DNA of 54,904 bases from a virus, in the IMG/VR virus record IMGVR_UViG_3300037847_004215, positions 805-55,708 of that record; one strand, 5' to 3'. This document shows positions 15,830 to 42,202 of this stretch, one piece after another. Numbering within the stretch: position 1 is the first letter of the stretch; each line of letters opens with the position of its first letter. The position numbers and the translations under genes were made by a program. The notes under the pieces are model-generated. The model was not told the DNA's origin. It did not search any database and saw nothing but the letters and a program-made list of their open reading frames with translations.

Positions 15830-15835
15830 ATTCAT

Positions 15836-15843: not shown

Positions 15844-15871
15844 GAAAACCAAAAAATAACTGTCATTTATT

Positions 15872-18800
15872 ATGAATGAAGAATACCTAAGAGCTTTACA
15901 CAAGAGTCTAAAAGTTGATGATGATTATGATACTTGGATTAATGCTGTACAAGGAGATGAAGAGTACTTAAGAGGTCTTCATAGCTATATAGGTGTTGAT
16001 GATGACTATGAAACTTGGTATTCATCTGTTTTAGATAAAAAAAAAGAAGATACGGAATCGTTATCTACTGGGGAAACCGAAGATTCTCCTTCGGAAATAC
16101 AGACGATTCAAGGTAGCACGGTTTTACCTGAGCCTAAAGCCCTAGATAAAGACATACCAGCAACGGAAATCCCACTACCTACAGCACTGTCTCAAAATAT
16201 GTCAGTAGCTGGTATGTATGGTAGAGGAGAGGCTGTTGATGGTGCTCCAAGAGTAGAATATCAAAGAAAAAAAGCAAAACTTTCAAGAAAAGAACAGGAA
16301 GAAATCTGGACAGATTTAGGGTATGGTGAAGATGATTATGACCTTATAGACCTTACCCAAGATGAGTTTGGAGAAAGGCTGGAAGGTCAAATGCAAGAGA
16401 GAAGAGTTTCATCTGATGAAAGTGAAGATGAATTTCAGCAAAGAAAAGAGCTTACAGGAGACGATACACTAACAAGAGGCGCAGAAACCGAAGAGCAGAG
16501 AAAAATAAGGCTTGAAAAGCTAGACCCTGAAAGTGTTGCTAGATTTGATATTTTAGAAAGAGCTAGTAATGCATATGCTCAAGAAGAAAGCATAATATCA
16601 GAGCAGTTGGGGATAGATACCGAAGCCCCAGATAAAATTGAAATAGCTAACTCTAAATATAGAGAAGCGCTAACTGTTTACAATAAATTCAAATCTAATT
16701 TTGAAACAGATAGAGGTGAATTCAGCCAAGATTTTGTAGACCAAAAAAGGCAAGAGGCATTTGAAAAAATGTCTGAAATTCTGTCTTTAGATTCATCTGC
16801 TTCAAGCATAGAAGATTTAGCGGCTCATGCTGAAAAGTATAAAGCAGAAACAGAGTCAATTTTGCTAGACAGAACTTTAGACGCAGCTGCTTTAAAGTTG
16901 CTTACAAAGAAAAAAACAAAAGTTCCCAACTTTATGAAAGACGGAATTCGTCTTTATAGGGGAATGTTTGGTCTTGAAACCAAAGATGCATCTGAAGATT
17001 TTTTCATTGACTTTACCTATACGAAAAGAGCAACCACAGATGCTGTACTTGGTATAGTAAATGATGCCGTTATAATGGCTGCTGATTATATAGGAGACCC
17101 CATCTCTGCTGAAAAATATCAGCAGAGAAAAACCGAGAGAAGAGCTTTAGCTAACCTAGAGTTAGGAATAAGTAATGATGACACAAGGGGATTTCAAGAA
17201 ACATGGAATGATGGCGATAAAGCTTTAGCCATGAAAAAGCTGACTTTGATGACAGCAGATTCTTGGCTTCCTTATGCTGCCGCTATAGTTAACCCTGCAT
17301 CTGGTATAGCGTTAGCAGGAACTATGGGAACTCTTGGAACATATGAAGCATATAGAGATAGAGGTGATTTAACAGAGCTAGAAAAAAATGCATTGGCTTG
17401 GGGTTCAGGTACTATAGAGGGTATTATTACTAGTATAGGTGCGGGAAATATAAGAAGATTTAGAAGTGCTATAGGTATAGCTGATGATATAGGTAGAAGT
17501 TCTATAGCTGCAAAAAGAGCAGCGTACACAAAAGCTATAAACTATATAAAGCCTTACTCTACTGAAGTCGCAAGAGTGCTGCACAGCGCACCTGTAAGGG
17601 GCGGGGTTGTCTTTGTAAGGGAGATGGCAGCAGAGCAGCTTGAAGAATTAAGTATTAGTGTAGGTCAACAAGCACTAGCTTATGCTATAGCTTTTGACGA
17701 GTTTGACCCATACGAGTTGGCTGATGTTTTTTGGACAACATTGGTTATGAGTAAACTTCCGTCTGCTGTTACTAGTATTAAAGAAGTAAAAAATATCAAT
17801 AGAATGAACATAGTTCCTTCTTCTGATAATATTAAAAAACTAGAAGACCTAAAGGGTTTAGCAAACGATTTAAGTTCTACTTTAAAAGAAGACCTTCCCG
17901 CTAATGAAAAGAAAATCATAAGAAACGAGCTGGCAAGTGTTAAAGCAGAAATCTTAGAAATGAAGATTGATGCTATATCGCAAATATCAGCCATGCCTGA
18001 GGCGGAGCAAAATCGTGTAATTGAAATAAACAAAGAAATAAGAAAGCGGTCTAGAGCTGCTAAACAAACAGGAAACGAGCAGGTTAAAAAATCTTCATAC
18101 AGACAAATATCTCAGCTTTTAGACGAAAAGAAAACAATAGAAGAAAGATTACAGATATTTGACGATACTCAAAGAGCAGAAGAAGTAAGCACAATTGCAG
18201 AACAAGTAACCAGAGATGATAGAGGTGTCGTAGAACAGCCTGCACAGGAGTTGCCTGTAGATATAGATGAAGCAACGCCGCCTCCTGTAGTTGAAGTTCC
18301 TGCTCAAGAACCCACACCAGTTGCTGAAGAACCAGTAGAAGCTCCTTCTGATGCTCAAGTCGATGAAGGAAGACAGGTTCTTCAAACAGTCGGTGATGTA
18401 GCTGTTGATGATAATACAAAAGAAACAGTAGATAAATTTGTTGGGGCACTTCGAAATGTAGCTCCAAATATCAATGTGGTAATGCACGCTTCAAGAGATA
18501 GCTACAATACCACTCATAAAAGAGCTGATAGAGATGTTGGTCATTTTAACCCTGCCACAAATACTATAAACCTTTTAGTAGACCCAGAGAACCCTCTGAA
18601 TACATCTGGCTTTATGCTTTTAAAGCACGAAGCTGTTCACCCCATCGTGGAGGCTTTGGTTACATCAGACCCTAAGTTTGCAGATTCTGTTGAAAACAAG
18701 GTCAAGGGCATCATGAATAGATACGCCAAAGGAAGTGATGCTCAAAAAAGAGTACTTGACCATTATAAAAGATATAGCGGCAGAAGTGACCAGTCTTTAG

Positions 18801-21800
18801 AACTGCTCACAGAGTTTTTAACTGTGTTTTCAGAGCCTAAGAATATAAACTCTATAACAAGAAATAGGACAGCCATAGAAAAGCTTGTAGACCTTTTACA
18901 AACAATTATAGATAGAATCAAAGGGGTTAGGGATTCGAATATTCCAACTAGCAAGGCTGAGATTATAAGTTTGGTTAAAGATGTAAACAAAGCATTTTCT
19001 ACTGGTAGCGCTATAGATATAGACAAGACATTAGGGGCAGAATCTAAAAAACAAGCTGTAAGGTCTAGTCTTGAAAAAGACTCAGACCCTGAAAACGCAT
19101 ATCAACCCGAACGTGGCTTAAGTCCTGATGAGGTTTATTCTAAATGGAACGATAGCAAGAACAACTTTATAATTGCTGAAAATCTAGAACACAGCCTTGA
19201 ATTAAGAAGAATGGGCTTTGTAGAGGCTTACGAAAGAGACGGTAAGATTTATATGTCTACTCCTGTAAAGTATGAGTCTTACAATGCAGGAACTAATGTT
19301 GCTAAAATTGCCCCCAAGTCTTTTATTACAAAAGCCCCTAAAGACAAGGCTAAGAAAAGGGTATACGACTCTTTAAACTCTCTGGCTAAGTTCAGTGGTT
19401 ATAAAATAGAATATGTAGACAGACCTGATTTACAGTTCTCTTCTACTTTGGTTATACCAGATTCAGACAACAAGTTAGATGAAAACACCATAGTAGCTAA
19501 CCTTGCTTATGCAAATGAAAGAACGGGTGCTGGTGGTTTCTCTTTTGTTGTTCTCGAAACGATGAGAAGAAAGTCTCCAGAATACATAAATGACCTCTAC
19601 TCTAAAATAAAGAAAGGAGACAGCGAAGTAAGTAAAGCCTTTAATCAGTACTTGAAAAGATATCCAGAGCTTACACCTTTTAAGGATGTAAGCAAAGAAG
19701 ATATTGAATTTATCGCTTTGGCAAATGTCATACAAGAGTCTATAGACAAAATGATGACTAGTGCTATAGATTTAAACACTGAGAACCTGCTAAGTGATTT
19801 TCAGACAGCCTTTACAGAAGCTATAGAAAAAGACACAGACTCTGAAATAAAGATGTCTTTAGTTCCATTAGGCGAAAACACTTTAATGGCTATAGAATCA
19901 ACTCTTGGCAACAAAAAGATAGAGTTTACAAAAGACATAGATAATCTAGAAAAGGATAGAATAGACGCTCTGGTAGATGTTGTAAAATCCAATGTTGTCG
20001 ATGACATCACATTACGGGAGTTTGTTGAATATATGAAGCAACCTGTAGAGATAAATTTTGCTGGACTTCAGAAGTATACAATGATTGACGCTATGCGTGC
20101 TATAGATTTAGATTTAGAGTCCAATCAATCTATTGACATTATAAATTCAAGTTCATTGATTTCTTTCTATGCTAATGATGCTATACTAGAAGATATTGCA
20201 AATACTTATACTTCATTAAGTAATGATTTTATTAATGCGAAACAAAAGGATTTCGAATTAATTCAAGATGTTTTCTTTAACAGAAAACCAGAGACATCTT
20301 TAAACGAATCTCAAACAAGAGTATTAGACTTTATAAAAACTTTAGATGAAAAAACATTTACCGCCTCAGATAAGGCGTTAAATTTTAGTGGCTCTGTTTT
20401 TACTGATTCATTTATACAAATGATGGATGCATTAGTGGAAAATGTAAGAAACCCTAGGTCACACTACAAGCTTCTTGATTTTGTTTATTCTGTAACTGAT
20501 GATTATGAACTAGCTAAAACGGCAAGAATCCATCACGGAGTTTTAGAGATTACGCAAAAGAACAAGTATTTAGACAAATATGAAGACATCTCAGAAACTC
20601 AAAAAGTAAACGACTTTATAGAAGATGTGTTTGATTCGAATTTAGAGTATTTTGATAAGGCTTATGCTGCATCTAAAATAAATGTGAATCAATTGGTTGA
20701 TGCTGTATCTAAAGAGAAAACATTTAGAGATGCACTCAACAAAGCAAAATCACAATTTGATATTAATTATGAGGATGGTGTTTTTACCATTAAGGTTGAG
20801 ACTCCAGAGTTAAAGAGAAGATTTCCTAAAAAGATACCGAAGGGAGCAGAGGCTGTTTACAATGATAGGGCTAGAATGGACATTATAGCTGTTCCTACGC
20901 CAGATGGAGGACTTGATGTGCAGTTTGATTTAGCTTACGATGGGATACTTAAACCCTTAGGTGTGTTTGATACCCCTGAGTATAGATTTGCTGACTTTCC
21001 TAAGTCTTGGGGGGTCGGAAGTGTAACAATGCCTATCGTGTTTAAATATGTAAATGCCATGACCGCTTTGTTGAATTCAAAGTACGTTTCTTTTGCGGCT
21101 ACTACAAACCAAAAACATCCAGAGATAGATTTAGATTTATACTCTGATGCTCAAAAGGAATCTTTCCTTAGTAGAAACCCAGTAATGAGGAGAGGTATCT
21201 ATAATCTAGCGGCACTTAGATATGGTAACATAGTTGATGCTAAAACAAAAAGAGACGTTGCCTTTCTTCTTCCTGATGATAATACAGTATATAAGTCTAA
21301 AGATAAAGAGCTTGTTGATTTTATTACATCGCCTAAAATTGATAATTCGATATATAAGCTGGGCGATTTATTTATATCCGAAAAGATAGGAGAAGAGCTT
21401 GTAAAATATAGAAAGACAGACCTTATAAATAGATTGAAAAAGGAATCTGATAAGGTTGATGTAAAAAAAGGAGAGTCTCCTATTACAGCTGCTAATAGAA
21501 TAAATAGCGAATCATTTGTTTTCAAGGGTGCAGAAACAATAAATAACAATGCTCCTATGGCATCAGCGTTTGAAAATAGCGAGAAGTATATTTCATCTGC
21601 TGGTATACGTTCAATGCTTACCCCAGAAAATATTGAACAGGGCAGAGATACTAGGAAGGAGTTTGAAAGAATGAACGAAGCTTCTATTGAAGCTCAGTTA
21701 AGAGAAAATAAATCCAAGAGAAAAGACTTTGTAAAAAAATACTTTGGTAGAGAAGCTTTGGTTACAACCACCGCGGGCGTGCAAAAAGCACTAGAAAAAG

Positions 21801-24748
21801 GATTTGATGATTACATATTAGCTCAATTCACTTCCTTGAATGGACAGAGAGGCAATGCTGAGGCGAGGTTTATGCGTTTAGAAAAAGAAATATACGGCGG
21901 GCTAAGTGTTGAAGATGAAGGTGTTCTTAATGAGTTAATATTTTATAGAAGAGTAATTCAAGTAGACGCAAATAGAGATAGAAGACTTTTAGAAAACGAA
22001 GGTAAACTGAGTGTTTTAAATGCAGAGCTAGAGGGGTTGGAACAGACTCTGAAAAAAGCAGACACGAAGAAAGCTAAGGATGCTGTTTCATTAAAAATTA
22101 GCGAAACAAAAAAGACCATAAAGTTTGTTGAAGAGCAAATAGAAAGATATAGTGAGCCGATAATGCATGGCAGTAAAATAATAAAACTAGAGACTGCTCA
22201 GAATGCAATAAAAGTTATGAAATTTGATGTTCCAGAAGCTAAGATGGCGGACTTAGAGTCTAGGGCTGAGGCATATTTCAACGCTTATAAACAAATACTT
22301 GAAGACTCTTATCAGGCGGGTCTTATAGACCAAGAAACTAGAGACAGATTTATAAATGATGATTACTCTCCTAGAGTATTCATAAGTAAGATGTTTGAAA
22401 ACACCGACCCACGAGTTTTTGAAAACATGGGATTAGGGGAAGACCAAATAAAATCTATTAAAAACGGTAGTGAGGGTGAGATGTTCTTGGACACAAGATT
22501 CTTGCTTAATGCTAGTTTACGCTCTCTGGAAAAGAGAGCTAAATACAATGAGTTTTTTAATGCTGTTAATAAGGAAGCTGATAGATTAGACTACAAGATT
22601 AAGAGTGATTTTCTCAGAGAAGGTAAATACAAAACAGATTCAGAGGGTAATGTTATAGAAGATTCTTTTGGCAATAGACAGCTGGAATCTCCAGATGAAG
22701 GATATACAAACCTAATATTTAAAGAAGACGGAAAAACTAGAGGCTTCCAAGTTCAAAGCGATTTGTATAATCAAATGGTAGGTATAGAAGATAGAAGGCT
22801 CATGTCTCCAACTCAAAGAAGAAAAGTAGAAAAGGTTACTGGTGTAAGGACAAAGAAAGCTTTAGTTACTGGACTGTCTCCTAGATTTGCTGTAGTTGCT
22901 ACACTTCGTGGGTTTACTGAGGTGACTCGTGGTCGTGGTGTGTACGATGATTTTATGGCATTGCCGATAATGCAAACTATGGCAATGGTTGATTTCTTCA
23001 AAGCATTGCCTAATGCAAACCTCAACTCTGAATTAGCGCAAGATTATGCTGAACATGGGGGTATGATGTCATTTATGACTAATCAAGGTAGACCTGAAAA
23101 AGTAGTTAAAAGAAAAGCTCAAAGAGAAAAAGGCATTATATCATCTACTAGAGCTATGCTTGGTCAGTTTAGTCCTCTTAAGAAGGCAGGAAGAGTTTTA
23201 TCTTATGCTGGTGAAACAGCGGAGCTTGGAATGAGACTGGCTATATATGACAGAATGTTAAAGAAGCTTGCAAAAACAAGACCTGAACTAACAGAAAAAC
23301 AAAGAAAATTTTTGGCAATTGAAGAGGCTAGGCTTCTTGCAGATTTTAGTCAAGGTGGATACTTAGGTAAAGATTTAGATGCATTTAAACCTTACCTAAA
23401 TGCAGCCATTCAGGGTACTAGGGGCACTTTAAACTACATAAAAAAGAATCCGAAGATGTTTAGCATTAAAGCAGCTCAATCTGTAATTATACAGGCTGGG
23501 TTGGTTATGTTAGCTAAGTCTGTTGCTGGTGAGTACTGGGAAAACATATCTCAATACATAAAGAACAGATATATGTTGATTCCTTTGTTTATCACAAAAA
23601 CAGTTAAAAACAAAAAAGGAGATGATGTTGAAGTTCCTCAGTTCTTAAAAATACCAAAGGCTCATCAGTTTATGATGCTTGACCATCTATCAACAATGCT
23701 AGGAGAGGAGCTGTATTCTTTGTATCAAGGTGAGGATTACGACTGGAAAATGTATGATGGTAGAGGCGGGTTTACAGAGCAGGGCGAAGGCTTTGTTGAT
23801 GCTATGCTTAGTTCATTACCAGCAGGTGACCTATTGCCAGAGGAGATATTAGCTCCTAAAGATTTAACTTTTAATAACATCATGGGAGGCATAGTATCTA
23901 ACATACCAGTAGGAGGAATGCTTGATTCTTACATTAACAATGTAGATAGATACATGAATTCAGTTGTTACTTATGACCGCAAAGATGAAGCGAGTGAAAG
24001 AATATTCCCTTCGGCAGAGGGAATGCTTGATGCTAAAACAAGAGATATGTTCAAGCTTATGGGTGAAGCTACAGCTAGATTTGGGGAGAAGTCTATATCA
24101 CCACCTAGAGCGCAAAAAGCTTTCGAGAAAATGTTCTCAAATGAAACAAGTATTATTGTTAGCGCTATATACAATATAACTGATGCCATGATAAGTACTC
24201 AAGATGAGAAGTCATCAATACAGCCTTCTCCAGAACTAATCGGCAAAAGAAAAAAGAAGTTCGAAAAAGATTTGGGATTGGTAAGAACGTTTATATACGA
24301 AGTTCCTGCTGACAAATATGAACCTTCTTTGAGTAAGAAGTATAGAGAAGAAATGGTTAAGGCTAATACAGAAAGGTTTAAAATAAAAAGAGAGATTGGT
24401 GTTTTACTTAAAAACTATAAGTACGATGTCATATCAAATGACAAGGATATAAAGTTCCCTAAAAAGGTAGAAGAGTATATTTTATCTTTGCCTGAAGCTG
24501 TCAGAAAACAATATATTAATAGTACAAAGAACCAACTAAAAGGCTTTGAAGCAAATCCTATATTTGTAGATTCTAGATATGTAACTCCTGAAGTTGCAGG
24601 AATGTATTTAAGAGATGCCCTTCAGATTGATTTTTGGGATGATTTATCTCCTGAAGATAAACAGTCTTTTAAAGAAGATATGAAGAGAGCAGGAATCTCA
24701 AACACTCAAGGATATTTGATTATTGAAGAACTAAAAAAGGAAAGATAA
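15872..24748 (+). CDS. Giant internal/polyvalent virion protein with HExxH peptidase motif and LPD38-like domain
   Basis: 2958 residues. Residues 1-27 and 30-56 are two copies of a short repeat (EEYLRALHKSLKVDDDYDTW versus DEEYLRGLHSYIGVDDDYETW), a motif common at the ends of very large phage virion proteins. An acidic, Pro/Val-rich linker (about 790-850) precedes a zinc-peptidase-like segment with H919-E920-A-V-H923 in LLKHEAVHPIVEAL. Near the C terminus, ADFSQGGYLGKDLDAFKPYL (about 2490-2509) followed by NAAIQGTRG and a hydrophobic stretch (about 2533-2552) resembles the LPD38 domain of large polyvalent proteins. Such proteins sit inside the capsid and are ejected with the DNA; the peptidase could trim the cell wall, mature the virion or act on host targets. 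The role is inferred. Confidence 0.75.
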   Translation: MNEEYLRALHKSLKVDDDYDTWINAVQGDEEYLRGLHSYIGVDDDYETWYSSVLDKKKEDTESLSTGETEDSPSEIQTIQGSTVLPEPKALDKDIPATEIPLPTALSQNMSVAGMYGRGEAVDGAPRVEYQRKKAKLSRKEQEEIWTDLGYGEDDYDLIDLTQDEFGERLEGQMQERRVSSDESEDEFQQRKELTGDDTLTRGAETEEQRKIRLEKLDPESVARFDILERASNAYAQEESIISEQLGIDTEAPDKIEIANSKYREALTVYNKFKSNFETDRGEFSQDFVDQKRQEAFEKMSEILSLDSSASSIEDLAAHAEKYKAETESILLDRTLDAAALKLLTKKKTKVPNFMKDGIRLYRGMFGLETKDASEDFFIDFTYTKRATTDAVLGIVNDAVIMAADYIGDPISAEKYQQRKTERRALANLELGISNDDTRGFQETWNDGDKALAMKKLTLMTADSWLPYAAAIVNPASGIALAGTMGTLGTYEAYRDRGDLTELEKNALAWGSGTIEGIITSIGAGNIRRFRSAIGIADDIGRSSIAAKRAAYTKAINYIKPYSTEVARVLHSAPVRGGVVFVREMAAEQLEELSISVGQQALAYAIAFDEFDPYELADVFWTTLVMSKLPSAVTSIKEVKNINRMNIVPSSDNIKKLEDLKGLANDLSSTLKEDLPANEKKIIRNELASVKAEILEMKIDAISQISAMPEAEQNRVIEINKEIRKRSRAAKQTGNEQVKKSSYRQISQLLDEKKTIEERLQIFDDTQRAEEVSTIAEQVTRDDRGVVEQPAQELPVDIDEATPPPVVEVPAQEPTPVAEEPVEAPSDAQVDEGRQVLQTVGDVAVDDNTKETVDKFVGALRNVAPNINVVMHASRDSYNTTHKRADRDVGHFNPATNTINLLVDPENPLNTSGFMLLKHEAVHPIVEALVTSDPKFADSVENKVKGIMNRYAKGSDAQKRVLDHYKRYSGRSDQSLELLTEFLTVFSEPKNINSITRNRTAIEKLVDLLQTIIDRIKGVRDSNIPTSKAEIISLVKDVNKAFSTGSAIDIDKTLGAESKKQAVRSSLEKDSDPENAYQPERGLSPDEVYSKWNDSKNNFIIAENLEHSLELRRMGFVEAYERDGKIYMSTPVKYESYNAGTNVAKIAPKSFITKAPKDKAKKRVYDSLNSLAKFSGYKIEYVDRPDLQFSSTLVIPDSDNKLDENTIVANLAYANERTGAGGFSFVVLETMRRKSPEYINDLYSKIKKGDSEVSKAFNQYLKRYPELTPFKDVSKEDIEFIALANVIQESIDKMMTSAIDLNTENLLSDFQTAFTEAIEKDTDSEIKMSLVPLGENTLMAIESTLGNKKIEFTKDIDNLEKDRIDALVDVVKSNVVDDITLREFVEYMKQPVEINFAGLQKYTMIDAMRAIDLDLESNQSIDIINSSSLISFYANDAILEDIANTYTSLSNDFINAKQKDFELIQDVFFNRKPETSLNESQTRVLDFIKTLDEKTFTASDKALNFSGSVFTDSFIQMMDALVENVRNPRSHYKLLDFVYSVTDDYELAKTARIHHGVLEITQKNKYLDKYEDISETQKVNDFIEDVFDSNLEYFDKAYAASKINVNQLVDAVSKEKTFRDALNKAKSQFDINYEDGVFTIKVETPELKRRFPKKIPKGAEAVYNDRARMDIIAVPTPDGGLDVQFDLAYDGILKPLGVFDTPEYRFADFPKSWGVGSVTMPIVFKYVNAMTALLNSKYVSFAATTNQKHPEIDLDLYSDAQKESFLSRNPVMRRGIYNLAALRYGNIVDAKTKRDVAFLLPDDNTVYKSKDKELVDFITSPKIDNSIYKLGDLFISEKIGEELVKYRKTDLINRLKKESDKVDVKKGESPITAANRINSESFVFKGAETINNNAPMASAFENSEKYISSAGIRSMLTPENIEQGRDTRKEFERMNEASIEAQLRENKSKRKDFVKKYFGREALVTTTAGVQKALEKGFDDYILAQFTSLNGQRGNAEARFMRLEKEIYGGLSVEDEGVLNELIFYRRVIQVDANRDRRLLENEGKLSVLNAELEGLEQTLKKADTKKAKDAVSLKISETKKTIKFVEEQIERYSEPIMHGSKIIKLETAQNAIKVMKFDVPEAKMADLESRAEAYFNAYKQILEDSYQAGLIDQETRDRFINDDYSPRVFISKMFENTDPRVFENMGLGEDQIKSIKNGSEGEMFLDTRFLLNASLRSLEKRAKYNEFFNAVNKEADRLDYKIKSDFLREGKYKTDSEGNVIEDSFGNRQLESPDEGYTNLIFKEDGKTRGFQVQSDLYNQMVGIEDRRLMSPTQRRKVEKVTGVRTKKALVTGLSPRFAVVATLRGFTEVTRGRGVYDDFMALPIMQTMAMVDFFKALPNANLNSELAQDYAEHGGMMSFMTNQGRPEKVVKRKAQREKGIISSTRAMLGQFSPLKKAGRVLSYAGETAELGMRLAIYDRMLKKLAKTRPELTEKQRKFLAIEEARLLADFSQGGYLGKDLDAFKPYLNAAIQGTRGTLNYIKKNPKMFSIKAAQSVIIQAGLVMLAKSVAGEYWENISQYIKNRYMLIPLFITKTVKNKKGDDVEVPQFLKIPKAHQFMMLDHLSTMLGEELYSLYQGEDYDWKMYDGRGGFTEQGEGFVDAMLSSLPAGDLLPEEILAPKDLTFNNIMGGIVSNIPVGGMLDSYINNVDRYMNSVVTYDRKDEASERIFPSAEGMLDAKTRDMFKLMGEATARFGEKSISPPRAQKAFEKMFSNETSIIVSAIYNITDAMISTQDEKSSIQPSPELIGKRKKKFEKDLGLVRTFIYEVPADKYEPSLSKKYREEMVKANTERFKIKREIGVLLKNYKYDVISNDKDIKFPKKVEEYILSLPEAVRKQYINSTKNQLKGFEANPIFVDSRYVTPEVAGMYLRDALQIDFWDDLSPEDKQSFKEDMKRAGISNTQGYLIIEELKKER

Positions 24749-24750
24749 TT

Positions 24751-24984
24751 ATGAAGAAATTTTCACAGATATTTAAAGACACAAATGATTGGAACGAGAA
24801 AACCATTATAGGTTTTCTTTCTTTCGCTGTAATGGTGATTGTGATGCTTGCTGATGTAGGTAGCGGATTTTACGGAAAAGACCTTCCGATTAATGAATTC
24901 ACCTACAACTCTTTTGTAATAGTCACTCTTGGCTCATTCGGTATCGCTGGATTAGAAAAGTTTGCAGGTAAAAAGGCAGAGTGA
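24751..24984 (+). CDS. Holin candidate with two membrane segments
   Basis: 77 residues with hydrophobic segments at about 21-39 (IGFLSFAVMVIVMLADVGSG) and 51-67 (NSFVIVTLGSFGIAGLEKF), a charged N terminus and a Lys-rich C terminus. Size and topology fit a class II holin, which permeabilises the inner membrane and times lysis. Its TGA overlaps the ATG of the candidate endolysin (TGATG), the usual coupling in lysis cassettes. Confidence 0.65.
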   Translation: MKKFSQIFKDTNDWNEKTIIGFLSFAVMVIVMLADVGSGFYGKDLPINEFTYNSFVIVTLGSFGIAGLEKFAGKKAE

Positions 24985-25460
24985 TGGAACTAGAAGTGTT
25001 GAGGTTCAGCAGTCAAAAAGACAGTACGAATGGATTACTATTTGAAATTACTGGGGGGAAGAGAGAGTTTTTATGTTACACGCTTGAGGATGAACACCGA
25101 GACGATAAAGTCTCGGGAGAAACAAGAATCCCTTCTGGAACATATCGGGTTACTCTGCGGACGACTGGAGGATTTCATGGAAGATATCTAAAGAAGTATG
25201 GGGAGATGCACAAAGGAATGTTATGGGTTCGTGACGTGCCTAACTTTGAGTATATCCTTATTCATACTGGTAATACTGACGAACACACTGCTGGGTGTTT
25301 GCTTGTTGGTGATAGTCAACAAACGAATTTTGGCAACAGCGATGGCTTTATTGGTTCGTCTGGCAATGCATATAAAAGAATATATCCTCCGATTGCTGAG
25401 GTTCTTGAAGGGGGAGGAAGTGTAACTATATCATACAGAGATTTTGATTATAAAAAATAA
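24984..25460 (+). CDS. DUF5675-like candidate endolysin
   Basis: 158 residues from ATG at 24984; the frame also opens with an in-frame GTG one codon earlier, but the ATG gives the TGATG coupling to the holin. The pattern TLEDEHRD, GETRIPSGTYRVTL, then ILIHTGNTDEHTAGCLLVGD matches the DUF5675 family as I know it. The His-Thr-Gly ... Gly-Cys-Leu-Leu-Val layout is reminiscent of L,D-transpeptidase (YkuD) catalytic motifs, so a peptidoglycan-acting enzyme is plausible. Its position between a holin and a spanin supports endolysin, since no other muralytic gene is visible. Catalysis is not proven by the sequence. Confidence 0.7.
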   Translation: MELEVLRFSSQKDSTNGLLFEITGGKREFLCYTLEDEHRDDKVSGETRIPSGTYRVTLRTTGGFHGRYLKKYGEMHKGMLWVRDVPNFEYILIHTGNTDEHTAGCLLVGDSQQTNFGNSDGFIGSSGNAYKRIYPPIAEVLEGGGSVTISYRDFDYKK

Positions 25461-26596: not shown

Positions 26597-26789
26597 CTGC
26601 TGCCGATTGAATCAGTTCTAGCTCTTGGCGTATCTTAGCCATGAACTTTTGTCTAATTGCCTTAATCTCCTCAGAAGTGACCTTGGGGTCACCATTCGGA
26701 GTATGGACTTCCTCGTAGAGGGCATCCAACAATTCGTGTGCATTCAAGCACGACAGATTGTAGAGTTGTGATAACTTATCAAAATTCAT
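26574..26789 (-). CDS. Small helical protein, function unknown
   Basis: 71 residues, MNFDKLSQLYNLSCLNAHEL and onwards, predicted all-helical with a Glu-rich C-terminal helix (KIRQELELIQSAADEYSELQ). It overlaps the resolvase gene by 4 bases upstream and the GIY-YIG gene by 23 bases downstream, so it is co-translated with them. I do not recognise a family. Confidence 0.6.
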   Translation of the reverse strand: MNFDKLSQLYNLSCLNAHELLDALYEEVHTPNGDPKVTSEEIKAIRQKFMAKIRQELELIQSAADEYSELQ

Positions 26790-27193
26790 TGGTCGTTTAG
26801 GTATTTAATAATCTCATCTACTTGAGACCTATTTTTCGGTATAAAAACTGCGTGGTCTGACATATCAGAGTCCATTAAAAACCTAAGAAACAGCTTCCAC
26901 CTTAACGGAAATGAATCATTTGCCCTTACAAAGCCCTTTGTTTCTATGAACGCTTTTCTGTCGGGTAAGTAGAAATCTGGCTTGTATTTAATTGGACGGG
27001 TCTTCTTCCCAGTAGCGTTGACCAGCTCCTTCTTCTTCGGAACTGACTTGTAATGGTCAGAGGGGTATGTGAACCCCTCGACCAAAATAAACTGTGATTC
27101 GTACTCAAACTTGTGACCCGATTGCTTGAGGGAATCTCCACAGTACTTCTCTAAACTGTTTTTATATCTGCCAAATGATTTCTTCTTTGCCAC
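26786..27193 (-). CDS. Endonuclease I-like PD-(D/E)XK nuclease (Holliday-junction resolvase type)
   Basis: 135 residues. The core PIKYKPDFYLPDRKAFIETK (68-86) holds the PD at 72-73 and E84-x-K86 of the PD-(D/E)XK fold, and the context 'Y-K-P-D-F-x-L-P ... F-I-E-x-K-G' is that of T7 endonuclease I-type enzymes, which resolve branched DNA before packaging and degrade host DNA. The size is close to the family's usual 140-150 residues. The C-terminal SDHAVFIPKNRSQVDEIIKY fits the conserved 'F-x-x-x-x-x-x' helix region. First gene after the primase-helicase. Confidence 0.75.
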   Translation of the reverse strand: MAKKKSFGRYKNSLEKYCGDSLKQSGHKFEYESQFILVEGFTYPSDHYKSVPKKKELVNATGKKTRPIKYKPDFYLPDRKAFIETKGFVRANDSFPLRWKLFLRFLMDSDMSDHAVFIPKNRSQVDEIIKYLNDQ

Positions 27194-27210
27194 ATACCTA
27201 ATTTAGGTAT
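27194..27210. repeat. TAGGTAT inverted repeat
   Basis: ATACCTA and TAGGTAT are separated by ATT directly upstream of the resolvase start. The same heptamer pair occurs in the 42-kb control region, and singles occur there too, suggesting a shared binding site. Confidence 0.5.
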
Positions 27211-27243
27211 AAAAAGTAAAAAAGAAAAACAGATTTATTTGAC

Positions 27244-27252
27244 TTATCCACA
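27244..27252 (+). promoter_or_regulatory. Perfect DnaA box
   Basis: TTATCCACA is identical to the high-affinity DnaA box of many bacteria. It lies in the 60-base gap between the primase-helicase and resolvase genes, 34 bases from a TAGGTAT palindrome, and about 3.1 kb from a gene for a DnaA domain IV-like protein. One isolated box could occur by chance, but its place is suggestive of an origin or a control point. Confidence 0.45.
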
Positions 27253-27253
27253 G

Positions 27254-29077
27254 CTAGAATGCTGAGTTGGGGTCGATTATTTCTGTCTGAACAGATTCAG
27301 CTCTTTGTTCTAGTATGCTTTTAAATAACGGCTTACCATAGGCATCAACGAAACCAGTGTTGTGTAAATTCATTTGAAATCTAATAGGCTCATCCACAGG
27401 GCTTGGCTGCCCACCAGTTTCTACCTCACGTATTTTTCTAACATGAAACTCTATAGTTCTGCGGTCAATAGGGTCTTGAGCTTGAACTTTTCTATGAAAC
27501 GTTAAAAAATCATCACTGCGGTTCACGTGCTTACCGCCGCCTTCAGTGTCCTCAGCGTAAGGAGCAACGGGCAAGCCATCAGCTCCCTTTCTGCGTTGAG
27601 CCTCTGTCACTGCGTGCATATTCAACCAGACGGCAATGTCGTGATTGTTTGTGAAAGTCAAGAACTCACTAGCAGCTTCGTAGTGATACTCGTGAGTGGA
27701 AAGTCCAGACCTTTCACTCATATCTATACGAAGAGAGTTGTATGGGTCTATAAAATATCCGTGAAAACCACCCTTATTTAACAGCTTTTCTCCGAATATT
27801 ATCAAGTCATAGTAACTATAAACTTGTTTATTACTTATTAAGACAAAGTGCTGAGATACCCACTCGTAGGCAATCTTTCTTTGAGCAAAAGACATATCCT
27901 TTACATCCATGTTACAACAGAAAGACATAAGCTTCATCTTGATAGAGGCTGTCCTATTCTCAGAAGAATAGATTATCCATTTCCACCCATGTCTTATGGC
28001 TGAGTTTACAATAAGATATAGGGCGAATGTAGTCTTGCCTACATTCGAATGACCATTAATAATGGTAAAGTTCTGCTTGTATCTCCAAAATCCATCAAGT
28101 ATTTCTGAGCCAGTATCAAGACCAGCTTCTATCTTGCCTTCTGCAAAGTCGCATATCCATCTGAAGTCTTCGTCATCAGATGATACGAAAGACATATCTC
28201 CATCATTAATAAGCATCTCTCTACGAGCCTTATCTTCTTGGTCGATAATCTCATGGATAGGCATGGTCTTTCCCTTTGCGATACCATCAGCAATGGTAGC
28301 CATAGGGTCATAGTGAGTGTCAAACTCACGCTTAGAGAACTCTCTAAATAGAACTCTCTTTACCTCTTCTTCTTCCATACGACCCGCAGAGATGTAACCC
28401 CCACATAGTATCGAAGCTTTTAGCAAAGTGTTGTGTCTATGACCATCTTCGGCTCGGCGAACCATGCGAGCCGCAAGGTTTAGTTTCATGTAGTCTGTGA
28501 AGACATAGTCTTCGTTGACCTCAACCTTTGTTGCCTCGTGGTCGGTAATAAATGCAGAGAATACCTTTGCCCCCATCTGCACTATTAGTTCGGGGTCATA
28601 AGACTCAAAGCAAGCTCTAGACAAGTTCTTACCAGTACCGTCTACCTCTAGACCATATGTTTTCTCGAAGTATTTCTCTAATGCACGAAAATGGTCTTCA
28701 TGTCTCTCTGGATTGCTGATTTGTACAAGAGCCTTCACTCCATTCCCCGATGGGGATGCCCAACAGGAAAACACATAATCGTCTGTGCCTAGCTGCCTTT
28801 TTACAGATTCAACATCGACATTGTCTAGGTCGATTACAACGAGTCTGGAATGCTCGAAAATGTCATCGTCTCTACGAGTAGAGAACGTACCCGAAAATAA
28901 GACAACAGGAAGCTGTAACTTTTTCTGCTTGTCTCCAGTATCTCGCAGCTCTTCTACCAGCTGCTGAGAGTTGCCTCTCTTTATGTTTTTCAGTGCATCT
29001 CCTAAAGAGATATACTCTGGGCTGTCTTTGTCATAGATGCTCTGAAAACAGGTTACTTGAATTTCGTTTGGTTTCAT
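27254..29077 (-). CDS. Primase-helicase: VirE_N/BT4734-like N-terminal domain fused to DnaB/RecA-like helicase
   Basis: 607 residues. The N-terminal third (SRLVVIDLDNVDVESVKRQL, then FSCWASPSGNGVKALVQIS) matches the VirE N-terminal and BT4734-like primase domain of Bacteroidota mobile elements. The C-terminal half has Walker A G342-HSNVGKTT (Lys348), a SSENR-type segment (IYSSENRTASIKMKLMSFC) and an arginine-rich end, as in DnaB or RepA-like helicases. It would unwind and prime phage DNA and is the only replicative enzyme seen in the window; no DNA polymerase is present. It lies head of the DnaA box gap and follows the Nmad1-like gene by 4 bases. Confidence 0.75.
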   Translation of the reverse strand: MKPNEIQVTCFQSIYDKDSPEYISLGDALKNIKRGNSQQLVEELRDTGDKQKKLQLPVVLFSGTFSTRRDDDIFEHSRLVVIDLDNVDVESVKRQLGTDDYVFSCWASPSGNGVKALVQISNPERHEDHFRALEKYFEKTYGLEVDGTGKNLSRACFESYDPELIVQMGAKVFSAFITDHEATKVEVNEDYVFTDYMKLNLAARMVRRAEDGHRHNTLLKASILCGGYISAGRMEEEEVKRVLFREFSKREFDTHYDPMATIADGIAKGKTMPIHEIIDQEDKARREMLINDGDMSFVSSDDEDFRWICDFAEGKIEAGLDTGSEILDGFWRYKQNFTIINGHSNVGKTTFALYLIVNSAIRHGWKWIIYSSENRTASIKMKLMSFCCNMDVKDMSFAQRKIAYEWVSQHFVLISNKQVYSYYDLIIFGEKLLNKGGFHGYFIDPYNSLRIDMSERSGLSTHEYHYEAASEFLTFTNNHDIAVWLNMHAVTEAQRRKGADGLPVAPYAEDTEGGGKHVNRSDDFLTFHRKVQAQDPIDRRTIEFHVRKIREVETGGQPSPVDEPIRFQMNLHNTGFVDAYGKPLFKSILEQRAESVQTEIIDPNSAF

Positions 29078-29081
29078 TTAA

Positions 29082-29429
29082 TTAAGTTGTTGTTTGGTAG
29101 TATCCTCGGTGTTCGAAGCCTTCGACTTCCATTATCTGCTCTTTCCATTGGCGCAGATGTGGTTCATCATTTTCTTCGTCTAATGCAATCTTAAGCAAAA
29201 TTAGATAACCAATCAAGTCTTTGACATTATCTTCTCCATATCCACGAAAACCTTGAGTCTTTATACGCATCAGTTTGTCATCGATTCTAGCGCACAGATT
29301 ATCTATCGCGCTACCGCCAGCGAATACATTTGCTGGCTCAAGAGCTGAGTCTCCGTAGCTCTGATTCTTTTCAATGAGCAAGTCTATAACCTCTTGACCT
29401 ACTTCTTTAATTTTTTCTTGTGTTGTCAT
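29082..29429 (-). CDS. Nucleotide modification associated domain 1-like protein (DUF1599)
   Basis: 115 residues. The pattern LIEKNQSYGDSALEPANVF, then LCARIDDKLMRIKTQGF and DLIGYLILLKIALDEEN, matches DUF1599 (Nmad1), a small all-helical domain found in many phages. The role is not firmly known; association with modified-nucleotide or nucleotide-pyrophosphatase-like functions has been suggested. The start overlaps the upstream gene by 4 bases (ATGA). Confidence 0.7.
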   Translation of the reverse strand: MTTQEKIKEVGQEVIDLLIEKNQSYGDSALEPANVFAGGSAIDNLCARIDDKLMRIKTQGFRGYGEDNVKDLIGYLILLKIALDEENDEPHLRQWKEQIMEVEGFEHRGYYQTTT

Positions 29430-29824
29430 AACAAGTCTTTTGATTTAATTAAAATTCCAGTGGATGTGTTGCTGTCCCCACCGCTTACATTCTTCCTATA
29501 GTGTTTGGTTTTACAAAGTTCTTTGAGTTTTTCTGTAGACAGAAGAACAGAGAATAGTATATCGTCTTTCTCTATATCTCGAAGCTCTGTTTTTAAATCT
29601 ACACCCTTCTCCGTAGAGGCTATCAGCATCCAGTAATCTGCCTTGGTGGTAGATATGCCCGAAGGCTTACCACGAGATTCATACTCTATGTAAAAGTTAC
29701 CAGTTCGGTAACAAGCAAAATCAAATTTTACCTCTATCGTTTTGCTAGAGAGCATCTTCCCTACCCAGCCTTCGCCTAATTGACCCAAAGCTAGGTCATA
29801 CTTAAAGTCTCCGTTAAAATCCAT
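29426..29824 (-). CDS. PD-(D/E)XK nuclease-like phage protein
   Basis: 132 residues from the ATG at 29824 that overlaps the upstream TAA (TAATG); a TTG two codons earlier also opens the frame but breaks that coupling. The core IEVKFDFACYRTGNFYIEYE, then SRGKPSGISTTKADYWMLI, matches a widespread phage family in which E-x-K and 'TGN-x-x-I-E' residues sit on a restriction-endonuclease-like fold. Probable DNA nuclease of the early region; target unknown. Confidence 0.6.
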   Translation of the reverse strand: MDFNGDFKYDLALGQLGEGWVGKMLSSKTIEVKFDFACYRTGNFYIEYESRGKPSGISTTKADYWMLIASTEKGVDLKTELRDIEKDDILFSVLLSTEKLKELCKTKHYRKNVSGGDSNTSTGILIKSKDLL

Positions 29825-30201
29825 TACCAATCAAAGTCTTCAATCCATAATGGGGTCTTATCTCCAACCATAGCTCCAAAGGTGTTGTAATCTGCAAACT
29901 CTTCAGCTTCTTCAGCGGACATCCCGTCTCTATCTATGAATATATCTATGACCTTGGTTCTTGAGTACACAACCTTCCAAAGTGTAGGTTCAAATCCTAT
30001 GATAGCATCATCTAATCCATCCGCAAATAATACATCGTCAGTATTAGCATAGTACTCCAGTATCATCTCTTTTATTGATTGCTGAGGATGAGTATCGTAA
30101 GGATGCTTATACACGCTATCCTTTACTTGTCTTAATTCATTTAAACTTCTATGTTTCATCGTTTCGGTTTCTATGTTCAAGTTCTCTTTCTCTCCTGCCA
30201 T
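29824..30201 (-). CDS. Conserved phage protein of unknown function
   Basis: 125 residues. The segment DDVLFADGLDDAIIGFEP, then RDGMSAEEAEEFADYNTFGA and VGDKTPLWIEDF, is a very common phage protein of unknown role. The start is ambiguous: ATG at 30201 overlaps the upstream microgene by 25 bases, whereas an internal ATG at 30159 (MKHRSLNE) would leave a 17-base gap; the longer form is listed. Confidence 0.65.
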   Translation of the reverse strand: MAGEKENLNIETETMKHRSLNELRQVKDSVYKHPYDTHPQQSIKEMILEYYANTDDVLFADGLDDAIIGFEPTLWKVVYSRTKVIDIFIDRDGMSAEEAEEFADYNTFGAMVGDKTPLWIEDFDW

Positions 30202-30305
30202 CTTGCATACATTTTAGCTGCCCACGCTGAACGCTGTTGTTTGTTTGGGTAAATGCTCTTTAGACGAGCATTTGCGATTCGTAGAAATTGTTCCATAATT
30301 TTCAT
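30177..30305 (-). CDS. 42-residue basic protein
   Basis: MKIMEQFLRIANARLKSIYP, then NKQQRSAWAAKMYARWQERK. The ATG overlaps the stop of the DnaA-like gene (ATGA) and the end overlaps the next gene. A short protein with the same 'R-S-A-W-A-A-K-M' motif recurs in other phages. Function unknown. Confidence 0.5.
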   Translation of the reverse strand: MKIMEQFLRIANARLKSIYPNKQQRSAWAAKMYARWQERKRT

Positions 30306-30853
30306 AGCAGGTTTTTTAATCGTTTACATTCTGTATTAAGTTTCTTGTTTCTTTTCTCAAGACCTTCAATATATTTTTTGGCTGCGTTGATTCTCTTTTT
30401 CTCTGAAGCTATTTCTTGCTTGTATAGCTCAAACTCTTTTATCAACTCTCTTAATCTTCGAGACACCCTCAAGAACTTGAAGTGTATATCTTTGACTTCA
30501 TTAGTATCCGAAATCATTTTAGGAACGATTCCGTTAAACAACAGCATATCCTGTAACTCTATTAAAATAGTGTTGTAGATAGACCTGTAGTCTGCATCGA
30601 AACGATAGTTCGTCTCGTGGTTCTTACAAGCGTGGAGTACTGTGGCGTGGTCTCTGCCTATGACGCTTCCTATTCTTGTCAAAGACAGCTTTACGTTTTC
30701 TCTGGCGATTACGGCAAAGGCGTGGCGATGAACCACATTAATTCTTTCTCTTGTATTCGTAACTCTGTTTTCAGCTTTGTATTTATTCCAGTAAGCTCTT
30801 AATGCTTCTTGCGATATTAGCGAACCCAATGCCTTGAAATTATCTTTACTCAT
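30302..30853 (-). CDS. DnaA domain IV-like DNA-binding protein without AAA+ domain
   Basis: 183 residues. Residues about 43-78 (RHAFAVIARENVKLSLTRIG, then SVIGRDHATVLHACKN) carry the DnaA domain IV signature, in which the RDHATVLHA helix contacts DnaA boxes. The rest is not DnaA: there is no Walker A or AAA+ module, and the C-terminal half is a long Lys/Arg/Glu-rich coiled coil ending KKLNTECKRLKNLL. It would bind DnaA-box-like DNA and either bring the phage helicase to an origin or compete with host DnaA. The upstream microgene overlaps it by 8 bases. The domain call is firm; the role is inferred. Confidence 0.75.
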   Translation of the reverse strand: MSKDNFKALGSLISQEALRAYWNKYKAENRVTNTRERINVVHRHAFAVIARENVKLSLTRIGSVIGRDHATVLHACKNHETNYRFDADYRSIYNTILIELQDMLLFNGIVPKMISDTNEVKDIHFKFLRVSRRLRELIKEFELYKQEIASEKKRINAAKKYIEGLEKRNKKLNTECKRLKNLL

Positions 30854-31389: not shown

Positions 31390-31584
31390 TCAAAACTTTA
31401 AAAGGCGAAGCCTTCTTTCGTACTTTCTAATCAAGCAACCTCTGTTATCAAGGTGCTTCTCAACTCCGTTATGAAAACCAGTAGCCGATGCACTGATAAC
31501 GGTATTAATTATTTCCCAATGTAGTTCTACGATATACCTTTTAGTATACCTCTTGTGTCTGAGTTTTCTTAAGTATTTTTTCAT
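31390..31584 (-). CDS. 64-residue basic protein, function unknown
   Basis: Chosen start MKKYLRKLRHKRYTKRYIVE at 31584; an upstream in-frame ATG would overlap the neighbouring gene by about 110 bases, against 44 here. The N-terminal 17 residues are almost all Lys, Arg and aromatic. Ends GCLIRKYERRLRLLKF. Likely binds nucleic acid. Confidence 0.5.
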   Translation of the reverse strand: MKKYLRKLRHKRYTKRYIVELHWEIINTVISASATGFHNGVEKHLDNRGCLIRKYERRLRLLKF

Positions 31585-31879
31585 CGTATTTTTTTGATAG
31601 CATTTGTAGTCTGATTGCTTGAGCAACCTTGAAGTTCTCATGATAATCAAACTGGGTTAGTAACTTTTCATTATGCTTTTTAAAAGCATATCTTATGTTG
31701 TTTGTATCCTTCACATCAAACAAGTCTCTGAGGGAATACAGATTAGCCTCCCCTATGAAAGCGTTCATAAACGCTTGACGTTTATTCGTGTTCACTCTTT
31801 TTGAATTGTCTGCGATATCACCAACAACATTAGTGTATCTCTCTAGTGCGTACTCAAGGTCTTTAGTCTTGAATTCCAT
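31541..31879 (-). CDS. 112-residue helical protein, function unknown
   Basis: MEFKTKDLEYALERYTNVVG, with a helical middle (NKRQAFMNAFIGEANLYSLR) and basic C terminus (KKYDEKILKKTQTQEVY). It overlaps the gene upstream by 17 bases. No family recognised. Confidence 0.6.
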   Translation of the reverse strand: MEFKTKDLEYALERYTNVVGDIADNSKRVNTNKRQAFMNAFIGEANLYSLRDLFDVKDTNNIRYAFKKHNEKLLTQFDYHENFKVAQAIRLQMLSKKYDEKILKKTQTQEVY

Positions 31880-32775: not shown

Positions 32776-33597
32776 TCAAATTAAATTAAACAATGCAAAG
32801 GTGTTCGTATCCTTTGTCGGGTTTTTGAGCCATCTGTCGATGTTCTCAATGGCAGACCAAAACTTCCGTTCCCCGTTTTGAAGCGTGGACTCTGAGGCTT
32901 TGTAAACGGCGCAGAGATAGGGCTTAGATTTCTGTTGGACTACCCAATAAAAATCATCAATCCCAATAACTCTGGTGTAGATAAAGGCTTGAATGTCATA
33001 GTTATACTTGTTGACATCGTATCTAAATCCACTTATAGAGCGAGTAGTTTTACTATCTGAGATGAATCCATCTCCAAGTACGTCAAGAAAACCTCGTACT
33101 GGTATCTCATCTATCCAATCGTTTATCTCATACTGAGGGTTACCTTTTAGATAGTCTCGAACCAACTTAAGTTCTCCAGTTTGTGTATCAACAACCTCAG
33201 AAGAGTCGAGGCGGAGAATCATATTCTCAGCCATCGACATATCTTCTTCGGAGACTATAAGTTTCCCCGAAGCCTCAGCCTCCTCACGAGCTTGGGCTGT
33301 TCGCTCCTTGTAAAGCTTTGAAGCTTTAGGATTTTTATAGTCTTTGCTTAACTCCGATACAATATCGGAATCGTCCAACACAACGAATTGCTCGTGAGTT
33401 TTTTCTGGTTCAAGTAATAGACAGTCATAGAGTTTACCGAAGGACAGCGCAGGAGATTCCTTGCGGAGCAGACCCCTCATATACAATTCAAACAGCTTCA
33501 TGTCTTGGTCGGCAGAGCCGTCCGCAGCGTATTTGAGAGCGGAGTACGAAAGGTATCCCTTGCCTGTTACCTCCTGTAATCTAAGTGCGAAGTCCAT
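32776..33597 (-). CDS. PD-(D/E)XK exonuclease (RecE/exodeoxyribonuclease VIII type)
   Basis: 273 residues. The opening GYLSYSALKYAADGSADQDM and the middle SFGKLYDCLLLEPEKTHEQF are the usual start of phage RecE-like nucleases; GFLDVLGDGFISDSKTTRSI (about 168-187) gives the metal-binding D and the D-x-K, and YDIQAFIYTRV follows as the conserved 'Q-x-x-x-Y' helix. It would resect ends for the ERF annealing protein upstream, with a one-base overlap (TAATG) between the two genes. Confidence 0.75.
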   Translation of the reverse strand: MDFALRLQEVTGKGYLSYSALKYAADGSADQDMKLFELYMRGLLRKESPALSFGKLYDCLLLEPEKTHEQFVVLDDSDIVSELSKDYKNPKASKLYKERTAQAREEAEASGKLIVSEEDMSMAENMILRLDSSEVVDTQTGELKLVRDYLKGNPQYEINDWIDEIPVRGFLDVLGDGFISDSKTTRSISGFRYDVNKYNYDIQAFIYTRVIGIDDFYWVVQQKSKPYLCAVYKASESTLQNGERKFWSAIENIDRWLKNPTKDTNTFALFNLI

Positions 33598-34169
33598 TAC
33601 TTCACAAATTTACCGAGTGCTTCTTTTTGCTTATCAGAGAATGTATCTCCGTATTTAGCAAGAACTTGTTCCAATGCTAGCTTCTTTGTCTTTGATGCCT
33701 TGATGTAGTCTACAGACTTCTGAAAGGCATCGGATGTTGGAGATGCTTTTGGTTTTGATGATTGTGAAGAAGACTTGCCGTGCGTGTTTGTAGCATCAGC
33801 ATCTTTGGTATCATCAATCAAGAACATACCATTCATAGCATACTTTCTAGCATAAGAGCTAGAGCTACCGAAAGACTGGGCTATATCCATACCTTTTCTG
33901 CTGGGGTCAATACCAGCTTGAGCGGATGCTGTAACACTATCTACACCATCAGTTACTCTAACTGATGCGTTGACAAATACAAGTCCGCCCACCTCGATAA
34001 TCTCATCAGAGATAGTCATAGATAACCCGTTCTTTGAAAGTAAAGGTTTAACAGCTTCAAGGATATCCTCAGCTGAGCGGTAAGAATACTTACCGAATGA
34101 GTTGTACTGACCCTTCGGGGCTTTCAACTCTGACTGCACTTTTACAAGTGCTTTGTTTAGTTTTTCCAT
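33597..34169 (-). CDS. ERF-family single-strand annealing recombinase
   Basis: 190 residues. The N-terminal 120 residues (KYSYRSAEDILEAVKPLLSK, then LSMTISDEIIEVGGLVFVNA and SSSSYARKYAMNGMFLIDD) match the ERF superfamily, including the Tyr-Arg and Tyr-Ala-Lys-Lys-Tyr-like signature. A Ser/Lys linker and a short C-terminal helix follow. It pairs complementary strands in phage recombination and genome circularisation or concatemer formation. It heads the exonuclease, SSB-like operon. Confidence 0.8.
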   Translation of the reverse strand: MEKLNKALVKVQSELKAPKGQYNSFGKYSYRSAEDILEAVKPLLSKNGLSMTISDEIIEVGGLVFVNASVRVTDGVDSVTASAQAGIDPSRKGMDIAQSFGSSSSYARKYAMNGMFLIDDTKDADATNTHGKSSSQSSKPKASPTSDAFQKSVDYIKASKTKKLALEQVLAKYGDTFSDKQKEALGKFVK

Positions 34170-41854: not shown

Positions 41855-41905
41855 AAATTGAAAATTTATTTGTTATGAGCTCAGCACTTTGCCGAGCCGA
41901 CACCT

Positions 41906-41926
41906 ATAGTATACTATGGTTGTCAA
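41906..41926 (-). promoter_or_regulatory. Leftward TTGACA box with ATAGTATACTAT palindrome
   Basis: TTGACA (41926-41921 leftward) shares its AAxACTTGACAxC flank with the promoters at 35839 and 39198. Instead of a TAnnTTTG box 18 bases on, there is the perfect 12-bp palindrome ATAGTATACTAT at 41906-41917, as expected for an operator. It fires towards the gene ending at 41387. Confidence 0.55.
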
Positions 41927-41931
41927 GTTTT

Positions 41932-41955
41932 TACCCCCTTTGGGGGTAGTTTTTT
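41932..41955 (+). terminator. Hairpin followed by T-run
   Basis: TACCCCC pairs with GGGGGTA over a TTT loop, followed by GTTTTTT. Rightward terminator, or a leftward structure just upstream of the TTGACA box. Confidence 0.6.
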
Positions 41956-42022
41956 CTACCCTTTAGGGTAGGTTACAAATTTCAATTAGCCCCTATAATG
42001 TTTTTTTAACCCTTTAGGGTTA
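41956..42022. repeat. Two CCCTTTAGGG palindromes
   Basis: CTACCCTTTAGGGTAG at 41956-41971 and TAACCCTTTAGGGTTA at 42007-42022 are perfect 7-bp-arm palindromes, 36 bases apart, with the same core as the 14-bp repeat at 34660-34693. An operator or processing site family is likely. Confidence 0.65.
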
Positions 42023-42085
42023 TTACCCCTATTATATTTTTCAGTGTTAGCAAGGTTTGAGGCTCAGGGAAATGATGATTGTGAA

Positions 42086-42137
42086 AGGGTATTTAGATAC
42101 CCTAGGTTGGTGGTTTGTGGTTATACCTTTTAGGTAT
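42086..42137. repeat. Two further inverted repeats
   Basis: AGGGTAT/ATACCCT with loop TTAG at 42086-42103, and ATACCT/AGGTAT with loop TTT at 42123-42137. They vary one theme, AGG(G)TAT with its complement. Confidence 0.55.
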
Positions 42138-42202
42138 GGGGGTTATTGACTCGTTTCGCTGTCGAGCTCCGCCGAAGCTCTCAGACGGCGCATGGTATTA
42201 AA

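Follow-up and report, generated by a model that had tools for sequence, protein, structure and literature searches.

Gene and domain structure of the DnaA domain IV protein

The stretch of DNA considered here, hereafter the window, is 54,904 nt long and corresponds to positions 805 to 55,708 of the viral IMG/VR record IMGVR_UViG_3300037847_004215. A preliminary description, made from the sequence without database searches, pointed to a 183-residue gene at position 30302 that seemed to contain the RDHATVLHA DNA-binding helix of DnaA, fused to a long coiled coil and deprived of the AAA+ module. The product of this gene, which we refer to as D4, is organized as follows.

30302 to 30853, minus strand: D4, a DnaA domain IV (DnaA-IV) protein of 183 amino acids, with an N-terminal helix, a DnaA-type helix-turn-helix (HTH; residues about 16 to 105), a linker, and a 65-residue coiled-coil helix (118 to 182)

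The profile search and the structure prediction that the description had proposed confirmed this architecture in all its parts. Residues 32 to 77 of D4 match the Pfam family Bac_DnaA_C (PF08299) with an E value of 1.1e-9 and 38.6 bits, above the cutoff of 31.5, and the six-frame search returned 40.6 bits for the same family; the RDHATVLHA motif corresponds to residues 67 to 75. No AAA+ family of Pfam was matched in the 183 residues, where only domain IV aligns. Likewise, in the comparison with NCBIfam, D4 aligned solely to the C-terminal 70 residues of DnaA (TIGR00362, 36.0 bits versus a cutoff of 343.9), and its top sequence match in the PDB is 1j1v, domain IV of Escherichia coli DnaA (E value of 4e-5). 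The AlphaFold (AF2) model, obtained from a 41-sequence alignment with a mean predicted local distance difference test score (pLDDT) of 90.8, presents a DnaA-type helical HTH core followed by the single helix 118 to 182. When this model was searched with VIA-align, the DnaA DNA-binding domains in complex with box DNA ranked first, with Z scores of 10.5 (3pvp) and 10.0 (1j1v) and a root mean square deviation of 2.4 to 2.5 over 87 to 90 residues, while the next unrelated entry had a Z score of 6.2. Thus, D4 is a DnaA domain IV without the AAA+ module.

The residues that contact DNA in E. coli DnaA, which were assigned in part from 1J1V and in part from PMC9638019, are largely maintained. In particular, R35, R43, D68, H69, and T71 of D4 correspond to R399, R407, D433, H434, and T436, whereas H44 replaces Q408 and A70 replaces T435. 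Among the 41 aligned homologues (roughly 20% identity), arginine occupies the R399 and R407 columns in 38 sequences, and D433, H434, and T436 are retained in 29, 31, and 34 of them, respectively, while position 408 is variable; the best-conserved positions of the alignment include the R399 and R407 equivalents and the D, H, and T of the RDHxT motif. Position 435, an alanine in D4, makes a base contact in E. coli DnaA (PMC9638019). Homologues of D4 with 40 to 55% identity occur in IMG/VR contigs.

The tail of D4 follows a heptad pattern from residue 120, with 84% hydrophobic residues at the a and d positions (a = VFLFIIINCL; d = IVLYEALLL); the fold search with the tail matched nothing informative. 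Since the heptad is clean, D4 is likely to form a two-headed coiled-coil dimer. The profile of the Phg_2220_C/phrog_428 replication initiators has no match in D4 or elsewhere in the record.

Genes surrounding D4

D4 lies on the same strand as a set of replication and recombination genes.

26786 to 27193, minus strand: phage endonuclease I/Holliday-junction-resolvase-like protein (PF05367, E = 2.7e-5, below the cutoff; phrog_190, E = 9e-8)
27254 to 29077, minus strand: fused primase-helicase of 607 amino acids, with a BT4734-like N-terminal domain (PF08800, E = 1.4e-23) and a DnaB-like helicase domain (DnaB_C, E = 2e-5; phrog_18375, E = 2e-141)
29082 to 29429, minus strand: conserved small gene between D4 and the primase-helicase (phrog_1485, unknown function), also found beside the primase-helicase in relatives
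29426 to 29830, minus strand: small gene (phrog_13596, unknown function)
29824 to 30201, minus strand: small gene (phrog_13182, unknown function)
31541 to 31879, minus strand: D4b, a second, divergent DnaA-IV-like protein of 112 amino acids without the coiled-coil tail (leave-out profile, hhalign, AF2)
32776 to 33597, minus strand: exonuclease VIII-like protein (DUF3799/PDDEXK; PF12684, E = 3e-20; phrog_412, E = 3e-35)
33597 to 34169, minus strand: Erf-type single-stranded-DNA-annealing protein (PF04404, E = 5e-37)

D4b, located 0.7 kb upstream of D4 in the direction of the minus strand, has no match in a direct Pfam search; it was recognized by a family hidden Markov model (HMM) built without it (E value of 1.5e-8, with no matches among reversed decoys) and by hhalign (probability of 88.9). 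Its AF2 model (pLDDT of 92.2) has DnaA DNA-binding domains as best PDB folds. In the recognition helix, D4b carries KDTNN where D4 has RDHAT. D4b is thus a degenerate DnaA-IV paralogue, and since the RDH motif has been lost, its ability to read a box may be gone as well; a role as heterodimer partner or decoy would be speculation. Two DnaA-IV copies also occur in the L068/L131 group of relatives, in L032 and L036, and in phage ctfjg026.

Linkage to the primase-helicase and absence of a polymerase

To place D4 among its relatives, IMG/VR was scanned with a two-sequence alignment of the primase-helicase. More than 585 relatives were retrieved in this way, of which the 80 best were retained; their DnaA-IV proteins were identified with an iterated HMM seeded with D4, for which reversed sequences gave no match at an E value of ≤10. 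Of the 29 primase-helicase loci flanked on both sides by 3.5 kb or more, 28 contain a DnaA-IV-like protein, in nearly all of the 28 at 2.3 to 4.4 kb upstream or 0.7 to 3.1 kb downstream of the primase-helicase. Every one of the 52 DnaA-IV copies counted is encoded on the same strand as the primase-helicase. Furthermore, for 32 of these 52 copies, the next gene, starting at most 700 bp downstream, encodes the annealing protein, often with a 4-nt overlap; ctfjg026 shows the order DnaA-IV, Sak, exonuclease. In the window and in the L068/L131 group, DnaA-IV is instead close to the primase-helicase and does not adjoin Erf. No copies of the close relatives, cellular or prophage, were found in cellular genome contigs.

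The preliminary description had also reported no DNA polymerase, which holds as far as it can be tested. The record (57,325 bp) is not closed, and both of its ends are cut inside tail-fiber-like open reading frames (ORFs). PHROGs scans of its large ORFs detected no DNA polymerase, and whole-record searches for PolA, PolB, PolIII-alpha, and the polymerase of phage Panino gave no match. Since the ends fall within tail-fiber-like ORFs, the replication block looks whole, and since, in addition, the module order of the record is that of the complete 60.8-kb relative ctfjg026, it is unlikely that a polymerase is hidden in the missing part.

The same condition was observed in the 19 long relatives, all of which encode DnaA-IV, while the same four polymerase searches and the phrog_428 search were negative in all 19. 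Of 26 records, Panino and elemoF alone contain the phrog_428 initiation family, and they are also the two without DnaA-IV. Panino has a homologous full-length primase-helicase, its own polymerase, and a Phg_2220_C/phrog_428 initiator.

Two further genes of the window have counterparts in ctfjg026. A GroES-like co-chaperonin gene (45324 to 45902, plus strand) precedes the terminase and is present in Panino, elemoF, and ctfjg026 as well. A single ORF of 2,958 amino acids (15872 to 24748, plus strand), with no PHROGs match, corresponds in position to a 3,859-amino-acid ORF of ctfjg026, and both possibly encode an ejected virion protein.

Candidate DNA sites

As potential sites of action, the preliminary description had proposed a perfect DnaA box next to the primase-helicase gene and a neighboring TAGGTAT palindrome. 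These and a third element are located as follows.

27194 to 27210, no strand assigned: palindrome ATACCTAATTTAGGTAT, immediately upstream of the start of the endonuclease gene
27244 to 27252, plus strand: 9-mer TTATCCACA, within the 60-bp gap that follows the stop codon of the primase-helicase, judged a chance match
42131 to 42487, no strand assigned: cluster of TAGGTAT half-sites (42131, 42272, 42281, 42409, and 42477), including a perfect TAGGTATTTATACCTA at 42272 to 42287

Both elements near 27.2 kb do exist, but neither withstood comparison. The window contains one perfect DnaA box versus about 0.5 expected and 13 sites with at most one mismatch versus 15 expected, with no clustering, the observed maximum being reached by 28 of 40 simulations. 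In L013, the closest relative by primase-helicase (79% identical), whose genes have the same order, TGTTAATAA rather than TGTGGATAA stands at the aligned position, and the ATACCTAATTTAGGTAT palindrome is absent. The box at 27244 was therefore rejected as an origin element. Over 14 genomes, 11 perfect boxes of the TTATNCACA type were counted versus 7.1 expected, without a convincing cluster, and 12 relatives show no enrichment of the box.

TAGGTAT occurs 19 times in the window versus 7.4 expected, and its cluster at 42131 to 42477 is the sole significant local k-mer cluster of the window (corrected E value of 0.04). In G014 (L093, IMGVR_UViG_3300010299_000006), the full-length relative closest to the window in D4 sequence, no excess was noticed (9 versus 8.1 expected). 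They qualify as candidate operators or origin sites; nothing connects them to D4. The cluster falls in a divergent intergenic region of 852 bp (41855 to 42706), which also contains two copies of the terminator-like repeat ACCCTTTAGGGT and is the best candidate in the genome for a control or origin region. The GC skew was discarded as evidence for an origin, given that its sign changes near 26 kb and at 41 to 42 kb coincide with gene-strand switches and are not independent of them. No iterons common to the relatives were found, the repeats differing from genome to genome.

Other repeat systems were noticed in the relatives. The early module of ctfjg026 (MW202828.1, positions 43745 to 55175; L010, positions 13745 to 25175) harbors all 14 perfect copies of the 16-bp palindrome GTGTCGTTAACGACAC, many of them about 20 to 30 nt upstream of start codons, an arrangement suggestive of an operator system or of repeats associated with gene starts. 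G014 carries, between 11995 and 15368 on the minus strand, 12 near-identical copies of GGTTACTGATAACTTAA, each placed between a hairpin and an early-gene start; this repeat is again associated with gene starts but differs from the one in ctfjg026. Moreover, in several relatives (G005, G007, G013, G018, and G019), no noncoding word is more enriched than TATATTTGC; since it fits the −7 promoter element of Bacteroidota (TAnnTTTG), it supports Bacteroidota-type bacteria as hosts, to which we assign this phage.

Possible role of D4

The DnaA-IV fold, the conservation of most contact residues, the lack of AAA+, the linkage to the cassette, and the absence of a detectable polymerase are observed facts, and they are the basis of the following proposal. 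We see about an even chance that D4 is a site-recognition factor, probably dimeric, of the phage replication and recombination cassette, which recruits the primase-helicase or the recombination proteins; more generally, the DnaA-IV protein is probably the way in which these polymerase-less phages mark a site on their own DNA. According to this model, D4 would act as a sequence-specific DNA-binding factor made of a DnaA-IV head and a coiled-coil tail, encoded in a cassette with the Erf annealing protein, exonuclease VIII, the primase-helicase, and the endonuclease. It would dimerize through the coiled coil, and the dimer would bind a phage-specific site rather than the host DnaA box; there it would recruit or position the phage primase-helicase or the recombination proteins, with synthesis then carried out by the host polymerase. 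DnaA opens the strands with its ATPase; D4 would perform only the site-recognition half of the task, and the opening would be left to the helicase, transcription, or recombination. The earlier suggestion that D4 marks an origin for the phage helicase is thus retained in part: the linkage across relatives and the lack of phrog_428 in DnaA-IV carriers agree with it, but the box at 27244 is not the site.

Several observations weigh against this proposal. Many of the loci compared are close kin or near duplicates, so that the linkage counts are not independent, and the sampling followed similarity to the window. The mutual exclusion of phrog_428 and DnaA-IV depends on two records and could reflect phylogeny. 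In Tenacibaculum phage Gundel_1, the DnaA-IV gene adjoins two separate annotated replication proteins, and in Olleya phage Harreka_1, it lies apart from any helicase; hence, beyond this lineage, the linkage does not hold in every case. Furthermore, no binding site of D4 was found: DnaA boxes are no more frequent than chance predicts, and the cluster of TAGGTAT, the only one formed by any motif, is a weak one that the closest relatives do not share. Finally, an early transcription regulator in the same operon would also fit this evidence.

Transcription control is indeed the strongest rival, and we consider it possible, if rather unlikely, that D4 is a phage transcription regulator whose DnaA-IV fold serves as an ordinary HTH, in the manner of GafA and GafY of gene transfer agents (GTAs). 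The DnaA-like DNA-binding domain of GafA is required to activate the GTA promoters, and a small DnaA-like gene precedes gafA in most Hyphomicrobiales genomes (PMC9638019), while GafY activates transcription via RpoD and IHF (PMC11150451). A stand-alone DnaA-IV with a dimerizing tail has the layout of a classical regulator, and the multicopy motifs preceding early genes in the relatives indicate that early regulons exist in such phages. However, these motifs vary between phages and were not linked to D4, whose gene is located within the replication and recombination cassette and not by a repressor or a late promoter, and the phrog_428 initiator is missing from every record carrying DnaA-IV.

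The notion, also advanced in the preliminary description, that D4 titrates host DnaA appears improbable. In this scenario, D4 would compete with host DnaA for its boxes, so that host initiation is stopped or the host replisome is freed. The retention of most DNA-contact residues suggests that D4 could bind host boxes, where, being devoid of an ATPase, it could only block. Nevertheless, the alanine at position 435 and the variability at position 408 argue against it, the window has no box array, so strict a linkage to phage primase-helicase and annealing genes would be unexpected of a host-takeover gene, and no positive evidence emerged. We give equally little credence to an action in recombination instead of initiation, with D4 as DNA-binding partner of Erf and exonuclease VIII that would, for instance, target recombination-dependent replication or genome circularization. 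The position of DnaA-IV directly upstream of the annealing-protein gene in most relatives, the gene order of ctfjg026, and the frequent 4-nt start-stop overlap, which suggests coupled translation, are in line with this idea, but the arrangement in the window and in the L068/L131 group, nearer the primase-helicase than Erf, is not. Phage annealing proteins are not known to depend on a sequence-specific partner.

Returning to D4 as a site-recognition factor, a wider hypothesis can be put forward tentatively, although it seems doubtful to us: Bacteroidota phages that have no polymerase and form a widespread lineage would start replication by means of a dimeric, ATPase-free DnaA-IV protein that delivers their own primase-helicase to a phage-specific origin and has displaced the usual phage initiator. 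If true, origin recognition by the DnaA fold would be uncoupled from the AAA+ machine.

Comparison with known systems

In Panino and elemoF, the phrog_428/Phg_2220_C initiators have their genes immediately ahead of that of the primase-helicase, a location close to that of D4. However, they are unrelated to D4 in sequence, contain no DnaA-IV, and occur in no DnaA-IV carrier tested. GafA and GafY share with D4 a DnaA-IV-like DNA-binding domain outside DnaA and belong to a phage-derived system (PMC9638019 and PMC11150451); different from D4, they are transcription activators of alphaproteobacterial GTAs, and GafA has additional sigma-like and omega-interacting parts, while Pfam revealed in D4 no second domain matching GafA or GafY.

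Domain IV of bacterial DnaA (1j1v and 3pvp) has the same fold as D4 (Z score of 10) and the equivalents of R399, R407, D433, H434, and T436. Unlike bacterial DnaA, D4 has no domains I to III, so that the AAA+ filament, the ATP switch, and strand opening are all lacking; it bears a coiled-coil tail, and it shows the replacements of T435 by alanine and of Q408 by histidine.

The proteins most similar to D4 in architecture are the DnaA-IV-only proteins of other phages, which likewise consist of a single DnaA-IV domain without an ATPase, encoded in the early module. Such proteins have already been annotated in phages of Bacteroidota and Pelagibacter (PMC4615864); no functional test of any of them was found in the open-access literature. 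Annotated carriers are the Polaribacter phages P12002L and P12002S (“replication initiation protein DnaA”), Harreka_1, the Flavobacterium mumin group, Gundel_1, Cellulophaga phage phi19:3, Pelagibacter phages HTVC010P and Skadi-4, ctfjg026, and uncultured Caudovirales. Compared to these proteins, D4 has very low identity, a different and unusually long coiled-coil tail, and a degenerate paralogue nearby. Stand-alone DnaA-IV proteins occur frequently in the genomes of marine and freshwater phages; there they are labeled as replication initiator DnaA even though they lack the DNA-opening part, and the label should not be read as indicating a full DnaA. While the DnaA-IV-only proteins themselves were known, the lineage-wide linkage of DnaA-IV and the pattern of phrog_428 exclusion are new here, and the nearly constant association with one primase-helicase and with annealing genes, with no polymerase, offers a testable system for a replication start that uses the host polymerase.

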